Source: Acidobacteriaceae bacterium (GTDB lineage: Bacteria; Acidobacteriota; Terriglobia; Terriglobales; Acidobacteriaceae). Taken from it: a stretch of 34,793 nt of DNA. The position numbers were made by a program, and so were the translations under genes. Below are positions 8,103 through 10,522 of the stretch, piece by piece. How positions within the stretch are numbered: position 1 is the stretch's first letter; every line of letters starts with the position of its first letter. Location: positions 557 through 35,349 of the forward strand of contig PKUV01000174.1 in the NCBI GenBank assembly GCA_003131315.1. Direction: 5' to 3'. Under the pieces are notes generated by a model. That model did no database searches. It had not been told where the DNA came from and was given only the letters and a program-made list of their open reading frames with translations.

Positions 8103-9125
8103 TTACGGGTTCAGCACGATCTTGCCGAACATCTGGCTCTTCTCCATGTACTCGTGGGCAGTGCGAATGTCTTTCAAGGGGAAAGTATGGTCGATGACCG
8201 GCTTGAGGCGTCCGGCGAAGACGTGGCCGAGCACTTCATGGAGTTCGCTCATCGTGCCCATGTACGATCCAAGCAATGCCAGCTGGCGCGAGAACAGAAA
8301 CCGCAGATCGAGTTCGACTTTCGGTCCAGAGGTCGCACCGCAGGTGACGAGCGTGCCTCCGGCCTTGAGCGACCGCACACTCTCTTCCCAGGTGGCGTGC
8401 CCGACGTGCTCGACGACGATGTCGACCCCCTCGAAGTTAGTGATCTTGCGAACTTCCTGCGAAATCTTCTGCTGATAATGGTTGATGACGAAGTCGGCGC
8501 CGAGTTCGCGGGCGCGCTCCATTTTGCGCTCGTCGCCCGCGGTAGCGATCACGCGCGCGTGAAATAATTTCGCGATCTGGATGGCGGCAGTGCCCACTCC
8601 TGAGTTCGCGCCCAGCACGAGAACGGTTTGTCCCGGATGAATCGCGGCGCGCCCCGTAAGCATGTGCCACGCCGTGACAAAGACCAGCGGAACGCTGGCG
8701 GCCTCATTGAAATCGAGCCAATCGGGGATGGGGATGACGTTGACGGCCGGAATTGCGAAGAGTTCGCAGTTGCCGCCGTCGACGCCGTTGCCGAGTACGG
8801 TGTACTGGCGGCACTGGTTCTGCAGTCCGGCAACACACTTGGCGCAGTGATTACAGAAATGCATGGGCGCGACCAGCACGCGCAGTCCGGGCTTGAGGTC
8901 GGTGATGTACTCGCCGACTTCGACGATTTCGCCGGCGATGTCGCTGCCAAGGATGTGCGGCAGGTTAACGCCGGGCAGGCCTTTGCGCACGAAGAGGTCG
9001 AGGTGGTTCAGAGAGCAGGCGCGGACACGGATGAGGACTTGATCTTTACGTGGTTTGGGATCGGGAACGTCTTCGTAGGTGAGGACTTCGGGTCCACCGA
9101 ACTGATGAATGCGAACGGCTTTCAT
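8103..9125 (-). CDS. Zinc-binding alcohol dehydrogenase (MDR superfamily)
   Basis: This 340-aa protein starts at ATG 9125 (MKAVRIHQFGG), with AGGAG about 6 nt upstream; an upstream start would add seven unlikely residues. It has the MDR fold. The N-terminal GroES-like domain holds a structural-zinc cysteine set (HFCNHCAKCVAGLQNQC). The Rossmann domain has the nucleotide-binding glycine motif (VLVLGANSGVGTAAIQIAK). It is an NAD(P)H-linked oxidoreductase acting on alcohols, aldehydes or quinone-like substrates. The substrate cannot be inferred, and the neighbours do not point to one pathway. Confidence 0.88.
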   Translation of the reverse strand: MKAVRIHQFGGPEVLTYEDVPDPKPRKDQVLIRVRACSLNHLDLFVRKGLPGVNLPHILGSDIAGEIVEVGEYITDLKPGLRVLVAPMHFCNHCAKCVAGLQNQCRQYTVLGNGVDGGNCELFAIPAVNVIPIPDWLDFNEAASVPLVFVTAWHMLTGRAAIHPGQTVLVLGANSGVGTAAIQIAKLFHARVIATAGDERKMERARELGADFVINHYQQKISQEVRKITNFEGVDIVVEHVGHATWEESVRSLKAGGTLVTCGATSGPKVELDLRFLFSRQLALLGSYMGTMSELHEVLGHVFAGRLKPVIDHTFPLKDIRTAHEYMEKSQMFGKIVLNP

Positions 9126-9258
9126 GGGGGCTCCTGGTCCCAGCAATGTGTCGTGTGCCGATTTGGCACGTTAGCTGGAAATGTACCAAAAGCGGTGTGA
9201 CTCGCGGCACAGAATGAGTCCCCGCTAAATCGTAGATTGTACATCGCGGGCTGAGTCT

Positions 9259-9347
9259 GGAGGGCGTTTCCAGCGGGTACTGGACACGGTCCGCGAAACC
9301 GGTGAGTGGCTCCATCAGCCACTGCAGTTCGAGTCTGCCGCCCTCCG
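9259..9347 (+). tRNA. tRNA-like gene with 8/4 acceptor/T-stem and long variable arm (allo-tRNA type)
   Basis: The 89 nt fold by eye into a class-II cloverleaf. The acceptor stem has 8 perfect pairs (9259-9266 GGAGGGCG with 9339-9346 CGCCCTCC). The T-stem has only 4 pairs (GCAG 9324-9327, CTGC 9335-9338) around a canonical TTCGAGT loop (9328-9334). The D-stem has 5 pairs (TCCAG 9269-9273, CTGGA 9280-9284) with a CGGGTA loop. The variable arm has 7 pairs (9305-9311 with 9317-9323, loop CCATC). The discriminator is G9347 and CCA is not encoded. The anticodon stem pairs 9287-9290 with 9298-9301, and may be extended by 9285-9286 with 9303-9304 if G9302 bulges. The 7-nt loop CCGCGAA gives anticodon GCG, with C in place of the usual U33. 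An 8/4 branch is not canonical (7/5); tRNAs of this kind have been reported from Acidobacteria. G73 and a long variable arm are serine-tRNA features. Whether it is charged and translates is unknown. Confidence 0.75.
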
Positions 9348-9370
9348 TGCAGTCACTCACAAAAATACCC

Positions 9371-9446
9371 TTGACACAGGCTATGCTCGGCGAGACCATA
9401 TATTTGCGGGCCGTGTAAATTAGGTACCCACTGGTCTAACGCCAGT
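9371..9446 (+). ncRNA. Candidate short non-coding transcript upstream of a terminator
   Basis: TTGACA at 9371-9376 is followed at 19-21 bp by CCATATAT-like sequence that could serve as a loose -10. A gene-free stretch of about 50 nt then contains a small hairpin (ACTGG 9430-9434, CCAGT 9442-9446) and runs directly into a strong terminator. It could be an independent small RNA or the 3' part of the transcript that carries the tRNA-like gene. No known RNA family is recognised. Confidence 0.35.
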
Positions 9447-9480
9447 AGCCCCGGGAGTGATGACCCGGGGCTTTTGCTTT
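9447..9480 (+). terminator. Rho-independent terminator
   Basis: A 9-bp perfect stem (AGCCCCGGG 9447-9455, CCCGGGGCT 9464-9472) with an 8-nt loop is followed by TTTTGCTTT (9472-9480). The T-rich side is on the plus strand, so it ends plus-strand transcription. No plus-strand protein gene lies upstream for several kb; the only candidates it could serve are the tRNA-like gene and the possible short RNA. Confidence 0.8.
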
Positions 9481-9589
9481 AGCGGACCAACTCAGATTCT
9501 GGCACCATAGTCGGTGTTGCGAGTCCAGAAGATGCAGATGGGAAGACTTGTTGGCGGCTTGCTCCTCCCGGCTTTGGCTCTGCGTAGGG

Positions 9590-9614
9590 ACGGCCGCCCC
9601 CGGCCGTCCAGTCG
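9590..9614. repeat. GC-rich palindromic repeat
   Basis: GGACGGCCGCCCCCGGCCGTCC (about 9595-9615) is a near-perfect hairpin of the same general class as the GAGACGCGGC repeats. It lies upstream of the xdhC-family gene. Confidence 0.5.
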
Positions 9615-9645
9615 AGCGCAGCCCGACGTTCGCTGACGCCCACGT

Positions 9646-9675
9646 TTGACCTTCCCCCGCTCACCGAACCATAAT
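9646..9675 (+). promoter_or_regulatory. Promoter of the XdhC-family gene, apparently leaderless
   Basis: TTGACC (9646-9651) and CATAAT (9670-9675) are 18 bp apart. The ATG at 9683 begins 7 nt after the -10, so transcription would start at or next to the start codon. No ribosome-binding site is seen. Confidence 0.5.
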
Positions 9676-9682
9676 CAACGAT

Positions 9683-10522
9683 ATGGACCTGTATGAGGAG
9701 ATCGTCCGCTTGCGAAAAGACAGACGGCGCGGGGCAGTGGCGACCATTGTGAATGTGCGCGGGTCGATTCCTTCGTTCGAGACCGCCAAGATGCTGGTGC
9801 GGGACGATGGCTCGATCGTCGGGACAATCGGCGGCGGCTGCGTTGAGGCCGAGGTGTGGCAGGCGGCGCGCGAAGTGATGGAATCGGAGAGGCCGCGGAC
9901 CCTGACGTTCGATCTGAATCAGGATCCGAAATACGACACCGGCCTCGTCTGCGGCGGAACGCTGGAGATTTTCGTGGAGCCGATTTTGCCTCCAGCAGAT
10001 CTTTATATCTTCGGCGCAGGTCACATAGCCGCAAGCCTTTACAAGGTTGCACGCATCGCCGGATTCGACGTCACGGTGGTGGACGATCGGGAAGCCTACG
10101 CGAACCGCGAACGCTTCCCCGAGGCGAAGGAGGTGATCGCTGAAGATTTCGACAAGGCCGTGGCGCAGCTCGCGCCCGGCGAGTCTTCATACATCGTGAT
10201 CGTCACGCGCGGGCACCGCGACGATATGCGAATGCTGCGCTGGGCGGTGCAGACTCCAGCGCGCTACGTAGGCATGATTGGGTCGAAGCGGAAGACGATC
10301 ACCATCTACAAAGAGCTGCAGCAGGAAGGTCTGCCTGCGCACTTATTCGACCGTGTCCACGCCCCAGTCGGGCTGGATATCGGGGCAATTACGCCGGAAG
10401 AGATTGCCGTGTCGATCACGGCGGAACTGATCGCGAAACGGCGCAAAGTGGAGCGTGACCTGCCGCACATGAGCTGGTTCCATCGCCGTCCGGCTGAGGT
10501 GGAACCGAAAGAAAACCACTAA
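9683..10522 (+). CDS. XdhC/CoxI family protein
   Basis: This 279-aa protein has the two expected parts. The N-terminal XdhC_CoxI domain (about 10-80) carries GSIPSFETAKMLV and GTIGGGCVEAEV. A GLVCGGTLEIFVEP segment is near 93-106. The C-terminal Rossmann-type domain (about 110-240) begins with LYIFGAGHIAASLYKVARIAGFDVTVVDDR and ends with IGSKRKT and ITPEEIAVSITAELI. XdhC proteins bind molybdenum cofactor and help sulfurate and insert it into xanthine-dehydrogenase-type or CO-dehydrogenase-type enzymes. No such enzyme is encoded in this window, so the client is unknown. The stop TAA overlaps the first bases of an AACCGCAGAGG repeat. Confidence 0.88.
   Translation: MDLYEEIVRLRKDRRRGAVATIVNVRGSIPSFETAKMLVRDDGSIVGTIGGGCVEAEVWQAAREVMESERPRTLTFDLNQDPKYDTGLVCGGTLEIFVEPILPPADLYIFGAGHIAASLYKVARIAGFDVTVVDDREAYANRERFPEAKEVIAEDFDKAVAQLAPGESSYIVIVTRGHRDDMRMLRWAVQTPARYVGMIGSKRKTITIYKELQQEGLPAHLFDRVHAPVGLDIGAITPEEIAVSITAELIAKRRKVERDLPHMSWFHRRPAEVEPKENH

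Follow-up and report, generated by a model that had tools for sequence, protein, structure and literature searches.

Why bacteria keep tRNAs that would be expected to corrupt their proteome is the question raised by a locus in a window of 34,793 nucleotides (the whole stretch of DNA that was analysed) from an Acidobacteriaceae bacterium. In the allo-tRNA section of a review (PMC7609411), GCG is given among the commonest anticodons of 8/4 allo-tRNAs, and charging with serine or alanine, activity in translation and serine insertion in E. coli are reported for related allo-tRNAs; in the outlook of the same review the explanation of the allo-tRNA structures is called "more speculative". A tRNA of this kind with the anticodon GCG was found in the window. 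From the sequence comparisons presented here, it is judged rather probable that the locus forms a two-RNA module, consisting of a serine missense allo-tRNA that is conditionally expressed and a dedicated cognate antisense silencer RNA. The swap and register tests carry this estimate.

Positions 9259-9347 of the forward strand were found to contain an intact 8/4 allo-tRNA. The acceptor stem contained 8 bp (9259-9266, GGAGGGCG, with 9339-9346), followed by a D-stem of 4 bp, a variable arm of 7 bp (AGTGGCT/AGCCACT), a T-stem of 4 bp (GCAG/CTGC) with the T-loop TTCGAGT, and G73 at position 9347. The anticodon loop CCGCGAA (9291-9297) contained the anticodon GCG (9293-9295) preceded by C33 (9292), and CCA was not encoded, TGCA being present directly after G73. 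The coordinates given by the first-pass annotation proved exact, and the acceptor stem, T-stem, T-loop, variable arm and G73 that it described were confirmed, all 29 of 29 pairs being formed in the window copy; the GCG anticodon, C33 and serine-type features that it had named were read directly in the same stretch. Serine-type identity elements (long variable arm, G73) were found to be combined with a non-serine anticodon. The minimum free energy of the stretch was -43.4 kcal/mol (z -3.46, with 1 of 200 shuffles equally good); the free fold at this energy kept the acceptor, variable and T arms and not the D and anticodon arms, and the cloverleaf was found at -40.8.

Compensatory changes were sought in relatives, as the annotation had proposed, and were found in a set of 14 homologous sequences (the window and 13 loci of the genus). 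In these, 96.8% of the cells were paired, against 24.9-57.8% when the partner was slid by 1-3 columns, and double changes were present at 8 pairs (1 in the acceptor stem, 5 in the anticodon stem and 2 in the T-stem), against 0-3 in the slid versions. The 8/4 branch is therefore read from 8 acceptor pairs and 4 T-stem pairs with double changes in both stems, and the T65-C81 pair required by a 7/5 branch was absent. The anticodon stem is preferably taken to have 6 bp and one bulged base, a reading supported by the extra pair, which was G-C in 10 of 14 sequences and A-U in 4 of 14; the plain 5-bp stem was broken in 4 of 14. A canonical 7/5 tRNA-Ser was rejected, since the 8th acceptor pair was G-C in 14 of 14 sequences and a 7/5 branch would need a T-C pair. 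A pseudogene was likewise rejected, since every pair forms in the window copy and C33 is shared by 22 of the 75 distinct anticodon arms compared. The same branch, serine-type features and long variable arm are described for the 8/4 allo-tRNAs of Mukai et al. 2017 (via the allo-tRNA section of PMC7609411), for which sense anticodons for many amino acids and Acidobacteria among the hosts are also given there, as here.

The allo-tRNA was not reported by ARAGORN or by the whole-window Rfam scan. When 9147-9682 was scanned alone, the Rfam tRNA-Sec model (RF01852) recognised it with 49.7 bits, the gathering cut-off being 47, and the genome search gave the same score. The tRNA shares with tRNA-Sec the 8-bp acceptor stem, the long variable arm and the extended anticodon stem, whereas tRNA-Sec has a UCA anticodon and a single selC-type gene. 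A tRNA-Sec identity was rejected on the GCG anticodon and on the presence of a separate tRNA-Sec in the genome (G000:C140, L018, 68 bits). Elsewhere in the window an Acido-Lenti-1 RNA (RF01687) was found at 1663-1708 (50.6 bits, cut-off 37). A further tRNA-like gene of the same genome (L024:1501-1591, G000:C42) was read as 7/5; it has G73 and a long variable arm, and its anticodon loop contains UAU.

When the flanks of the loci were compared side by side, a second small unit, resembling an RNA gene, was found 3′ of the tRNA on the same strand, at about 9371-9478 in the window. Across loci it was laid out as a TTGACA-type or extended -10 promoter followed by a complement of the anticodon arm and then by an intrinsic terminator. 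The presumed antisense promoter of the window (9371-9399) contained TTGACA (9371-9376), a distance of 17 nt and a weak -10 box GACCAT (9394-9399, 3 of 6), and scored below the threshold of the promoter scan. It was followed by the antisense element TTTGCGGGCCGTGT (9403-9416), which complements ACACGGTCCGCGAA (9284-9297), the anticodon-stem 5′ strand and the anticodon loop, at 14 of 14 positions with 2 G-U pairs. A second antisense block, GTACCCACTGG (9424-9434), complements the D-stem 5′ strand and the D-loop at 10 of 11 positions by direct reading, and an intrinsic terminator of the putative antisense RNA lies at 9447-9478 (stem 9447-9472, then a T-rich tail), all on the forward strand. The strong terminator that had been placed after the tRNA is present, but it is not simply the tRNA's own, as a TTGACA box and the antisense element intervene.

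The signals that frame the antisense recur among relatives. The TTGAC of the promoter was invariant in 15 aligned orthologues, and for 82 of the 83 loci the best antisense promoter score was above the mean of the shuffles. In 65 of the 83 the antisense is followed by a strong terminator, against 0 of 83 in the shuffles (mean of three for each locus), and a strong terminator between tRNA and antisense was found in 0 of 83. From the antisense start to the end of the T tract, 49-82 nt were counted (median 65, in 65 loci). T-box-like control of a downstream gene was set aside, as the terminator is immediate and the sequences past it differ between subtypes. These framing signals and the fixed order of the elements argue against a reading in which the inverted repeats act as DNA, as a cruciform or as a recombination or transposition site, with RNA pairing as a by-product. 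Several inverted copies of one anticodon-arm stretch do lie within about 250 bp, as that reading would have it, but G-U pairs are tolerated and no phage or plasmid match was found, and we consider it very improbable.

The window match alone is modest. Scored ungapped (long duplexfold runs were dropped, as they allowed huge interior loops), its 14 nt gave z 3.9 with 1 of 200 shuffles as good, and z 3.2 with 2 of 100 in a repeat run. Taken by itself, it would leave room for an ordinary or decaying allo-tRNA whose downstream complementarity is a chance match or a duplication relic. Against this stand up to 24 of 24 contiguous pairs in a distant family (L051), the permutation result and the register-fixed covariation given below, and the lack of an antisense at UAU-type allo-tRNAs and at most controls, which together leave this explanation scarcely credible.

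The distribution of the antisense was counted on 122 distinct loci, taken from two hit tables after removal of identical tRNA/flank pairs. The 26 loci lacking the D-arm motif were left out, namely 15 of the UAU type or with a TTTATA loop, 2 tRNA-Ser-like loci, L171, L177 and seven others (L044, L142, L146, L147, L156, L157 and L161), all seven of which contained an antisense match, a weak one in L142 (z 1.6). Removal of 2 loci with less than 120 nt downstream and of 2 near-duplicates from the 96 remaining gave 92 nonredundant loci. An antisense score of at least 31 was found in 83 of these, the nine loci below it being L125, L138, L011, L194, L145, L162, L111, L114 and L106. Counts at 31 are preferred because a threshold of 26 is lenient, swapped pairs having a mean of 25.7 and the match by which L162 reaches 26 not lying at the antisense position.

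In toxin-antitoxin systems the effector does not occur without its antidote, and a corresponding pattern was seen among the 72 of 92 loci with fully paired acceptor and T stems. Strong antisenses (at least 31) were present in 67 of the 72, and four contained weaker ones at the usual place, L125 (30), L145 (28), L138 (27) and L111 (26), those of L145 and L111 being within the shuffle range (14 and 9 of 100 shuffles as good). The remaining one, L194, contained two Ns at the expected antisense position with an xdhC-like gene directly after, an apparent assembly gap. At least one stem mismatch was found in the other 20 loci, 16 of which still scored at least 31. No antisense was found in L114, which has one acceptor mismatch, or in L171. 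Of 26 core loci compared with dinucleotide shuffles, 25 gave z of at least 2.9, the exception being L011. This locus has the anticodon AUC with an antisense for UUC and L029 has the reverse, a reciprocal mismatch between two genomes, both at 1501-1589. Among 21 control loci (tRNA-Sec, tRNA-Ser, other tRNAs and UAU-type), two tRNA-Sec-like loci reached 34 and 32 (z 2.8 and 3.1), and none of the 15 UAU-type or TTTATA-loop 8/4 tRNAs reached 31, the best being 29 (L185) and 26 (L172).

Those 15 tRNAs form a separate 8/4 group (L035, L046, L060, L062, L143, L172, L173 and L183-L190) that contained no convincing antisense; the anticodons of 11 were read as UAU, and 4 contained the related TTTATA loop. 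Two complete tandem modules, 311 bp apart, were found in L028 (1190-1278 and 1501-1589), with the anticodons AUC and GUC and each with its own antisense. In three allo-tRNAs (L041:1038-1179, L042:1501-1643, and L106:3999-4080 and beyond) the T-stem was broken where it meets the variable arm by similar REP-like insertions, each about 54 nt long or longer; the antisense was kept in L041 and L042, and the contig of L106 ends there.

Whether each antisense belongs to its own tRNA was read from a swap of antisenses among 75 distinct anticodon arms. Own antisenses gave a mean score of 42.1 and swapped ones 25.7, and 0 of 10,000 permutations reached the observed sum (z 24.8). For 29 of the 75 arms no other antisense outscored the own one, and for 50 of 75 the own one was within the top 5%; that it was best or tied in only 29 rows is explained by the antisenses of relatives, which fit too. 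Permutation within four groups (24 loci) gave 0 of 10,000 overall and 157, 0, 396 and 18 of 10,000 in the single groups, for which the result is weak. The pairing followed the anticodon base by base in 68 arms: base 34 was paired as GC 52, TA 5, AT 4, CG 4 and GT 2, base 35 as CG 29, TA 25, AT 10 and TG 4, and base 36 as CG 42, GC 18 and others, with 67 paired. Position 33 was paired as TA 44, CG 20 and others, also with 67 paired, so that in 20 of these arms C33 is faced by a G of the antisense. In the swap test the best-scoring register was taken for each locus, and the 68 arms of the per-position counts were picked by score.

The alignment of 15 orthologues is free of both of these score-based choices, as it was made without regard to complementarity. 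In 13 of the orthologues both neighbouring genes were in view, and in L044 and L111 the adh-like gene only. In register, 186 of 210 cells were paired, against 28-39% when slid by 1-3, and double changes were found at 9 of 14 antisense-tRNA pairs. The anticodons were GCG in 5, GCC in 2 and GUC in 8 orthologues, and the antisense followed them, although the match is weak in L111 and L145. A script made the anticodon assignments, and rare single cases are possibly misread. At one inherited site, anticodon and presumed silencer are thus found to change together. Partners were also compared within 12 multi-copy genomes, chosen by hand from 22 with two or more hits. Of the 35 tRNAs in them, 31 paired better with their own antisense than with any other; among the four failures, L114 and L171 lack an antisense, that of L145 is weak, and L159 gave a tie.

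This co-change also bears on a reversal of roles, in which the antisense would regulate other targets and the allo-tRNA would be a stable tRNA-shaped sponge outside translation. C33 in 22 of 75 arms and the lack of an encoded CCA in 88 of 92 loci are in keeping with such a sponge. An antisense that changes with the anticodon at one syntenic locus leaves no fixed outside target visible, however, and the antisense of the window scored 34 with its own allo-tRNA, whereas seven canonical tRNAs from the same genome gave 17-23. As the conserved acceptor and T arms would moreover be needless in a sponge, the reversal is held to be improbable.

The flanks of the tRNA were found to contain further complements of the anticodon arm. 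The 5′ leader element (9244-9258, forward strand) complements 9282-9296 at 14 of 15 positions, G-U included, covering the D-stem 3′ strand, the anticodon-stem 5′ strand and the anticodon loop. The 3′ trailer element GTCACTCAC (9352-9360, forward strand) complements 9302-9310, the anticodon-stem 3′ side and the variable arm 5′ strand. For leaders and for trailers alike, the match to the own tRNA was better than that of permuted ones in each of 10,000 permutations (24 loci). The predicted fold of 9244-9362 contained two long hairpins at -50.0 kcal/mol, against -40.6 for the cloverleaf, with the acceptor stem undone and the anticodon sequestered by the leader. Among the predicted precursors of 92 loci, pairing of the leader to the anticodon loop was seen in 46% when the flanks were their own, in 9% when they were swapped and in 1% when they were shuffled. 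The full lock was the predicted minimum in 44 of 92, and at least 6 acceptor pairs were kept in 41 of 92 (45%). The mean energy gain was -9.9 with own, -9.1 with shuffled and -8.4 with swapped flanks, and the register-fixed pairing of the leader was modest (65% in register, 60% one column off). The precursor lock, which is modelled, is the softer part of the case. The alternative in the first-pass annotation, that an uncharged tRNA may act as a regulatory RNA, is incomplete, as the region also contains the RNA-gene-like antisense unit and a leader and trailer that are predicted to lock the precursor.

Upstream of the tRNA, a presumed -10 box TAGATT (9233-9238, forward strand) was read by eye and was not called by the consensus scan, and no TTGACA -35 box was seen by eye at the tRNA promoter. 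The consensus of CRP/FNR-type sites is TGTGA-N6-TCACA, and a palindrome with one mismatch to it, TGTGACTCGCGGCACA (9196-9211, forward strand), has its centre about 41 nt upstream of the presumed transcription start of the tRNA. It is a putative activator site, although the divergent adh gene may be served by it too. Similar sites (at most 2 mismatches, within 120 nt upstream) were found in 17 of 90 loci, the window included, against 3.4 expected from shuffles and 6 of 90 in a control stretch far downstream, and in 12 of these loci the site begins 63-67 nt ahead of the tRNA; the motif had been noticed in the same loci before it was counted. TACTTTCGTGGGATTGC was present in 17 of 90 loci, 16 of them 62-65 nt before the tRNA, against 0.15 expected, a count that is circular because the motif was read off the same loci.

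These features suggest how the two-RNA module might work. In the primary transcript, pairing of leader and trailer to the anticodon arm would keep the acceptor stem from forming and leave RNase P without a proper substrate. In trans, a short antisense RNA, presumably transcribed from its own promoter, would cover the anticodon loop and the flanking stem and so silence the tRNA by hiding its anticodon. Read-through from the tRNA would also yield antisense RNA, since there is no terminator in between. Release is probably conditional, because the tRNA promoter lacks a -35 box and is accompanied by an activator-like site; the logic would be that of a regulated tRNA with a plain promoter for its silencer.

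The long variable arm, the GGA...UCC acceptor and G73 mark the allo-tRNA as serine-type. With its anticodon GCG it would therefore be expected to insert serine at CGC/CGU once free and charged, and a misreading of these codons as serine is plausible. C33 and the missing CCA could make for weak decoding. Among the 75 distinct anticodon arms, U73 was found in 12 (several with a GCC or GCG anticodon) and A73 in one, so serine identity is not uniform across the family and some U73 or A73 copies may lack serine charging. In five open reading frames of the window, the codons CGC, GGC, GAA and GAC, which are read by anticodons of the family, were counted at 49, 48, 49 and 39 per 1000, CGC being the commonest arginine codon. 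A free allo-tRNA would be expected to be costly, because CGC is so frequent and the other anticodons of the family read common codons too.

The host genome (6.0 Mb, 194 contigs) contained one copy. In the genus, 10 of 24 genomes contained covariance-model hits of at least 56 bits, and 13 of 24 contained hits at E <= 0.001, the weaker ones being partly tRNA-Sec. In the family sample, 72 of 398 genomes, in 21 of 79 genera, were hit at E <= 1e-6 with up to 5 hits per genome, a count that includes UAU-type allo-tRNAs. A second family gave 7 of 89 genomes, two of them with weak tRNA-Ser-like hits. In the phylum sample, 5 of 396 genomes were hit; three belong to the same family, among them one with a UAU-type copy only (L143), and the other two are weak hits elsewhere. 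The exact D-arm pattern was found in 53 stretches of named genomes and was confirmed by the model in 52, all but Halobellus. Of these stretches, 51 were titled Acidobacteria, Acidobacteriaceae, Acidobacteriales, Terriglobia, Terriglobales or Ca. Sulfotelmatobacter, and the remaining two were one Verrucomicrobia MAG and the Halobellus. No match was found in viral contigs (one exact D-arm pattern) or in plasmids or phages (distant blastn), and a phage or plasmid origin was rejected on this ground. The tRNA lies between a gene at 8103-9146 on the reverse strand, which we take from its sequence to be zinc-type alcohol dehydrogenase-like (adh-like), and one at 9683-10522 on the forward strand, presumably XdhC/CoxI-like, likewise by its sequence. 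Both conserved neighbours are kept at no fewer than 14 loci, in at least 5 genera.

The patchy occurrence at the 56-bit level and the up to 5 hits per genome would suit an RNA-RNA addiction module, like a type VIII toxin-antitoxin, in which the allo-tRNA poisons translation, the antisense is the antitoxin and the module persists through the lethality of antisense loss and not through any use of the tRNA by its host. The tight coupling of the antisense to intact tRNAs (strong in 67 of 72 and weaker in 4; it is strong, too, beside 16 of the 20 tRNAs with stem mismatches) and the common codons read by the anticodons point the same way. The retention of both neighbours, however, looks like vertical inheritance, and matches in viral contigs, plasmids and phages were absent from the searches described. 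Addiction is a special case of the two-RNA module, with which its probability overlaps, and it is regarded as possible but on the unlikely side.

RNA effectors with a nearby pairing RNA are known from type VIII toxin-antitoxin systems and antisense sRNA pairs such as SdsR-RyeA, and the architecture of the two-RNA module resembles such antisense-controlled RNA effectors, as here too a nearby RNA would pair with the RNA effector. Here, in contrast, the presumed effector is a tRNA, and the antisense, encoded 3′ of it in the same orientation, changes with the anticodon. To our knowledge, no other tRNA has an antisense gene of its own. CreT RNA toxins are small RNAs that disable a tRNA, so that a small RNA is likewise set against a tRNA. 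CreT is the toxin, however, and sequesters a host tRNA via the codons of a mini-ORF (PMC8501985), whereas here the tRNA would be the harmful part and the small RNA its silencer by antisense pairing. In the 8/4 allo-tRNA section of PMC7609411, neither an antisense partner nor a self-complementary leader or trailer is described, whereas both are present here; the toxin-antitoxin idea raised in that review concerns the UAU group, which was found to lack the antisense. The word "antisense" is absent from the main text of the review. The kind of tRNA was thus already known, and the antisense partner is one that the allo-tRNA section of the review does not mention, although an earlier mention elsewhere may exist.

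There is about an even chance that the locus represents a new class of RNA-only control or toxin-antitoxin, in which a tRNA rewriting a common sense codon is the effector and a co-evolving anticodon-arm antisense RNA is the antidote, the anticodon having been repeatedly re-specified along with its antidote at one inherited chromosomal locus. Engineering of the genetic code could make use of such a module as an RNA switch. For the bacteria that carry them, the presence of an anticodon-matched silencer at nearly every examined locus of the subfamily suggests that these tRNAs would be held off and perhaps released on demand.
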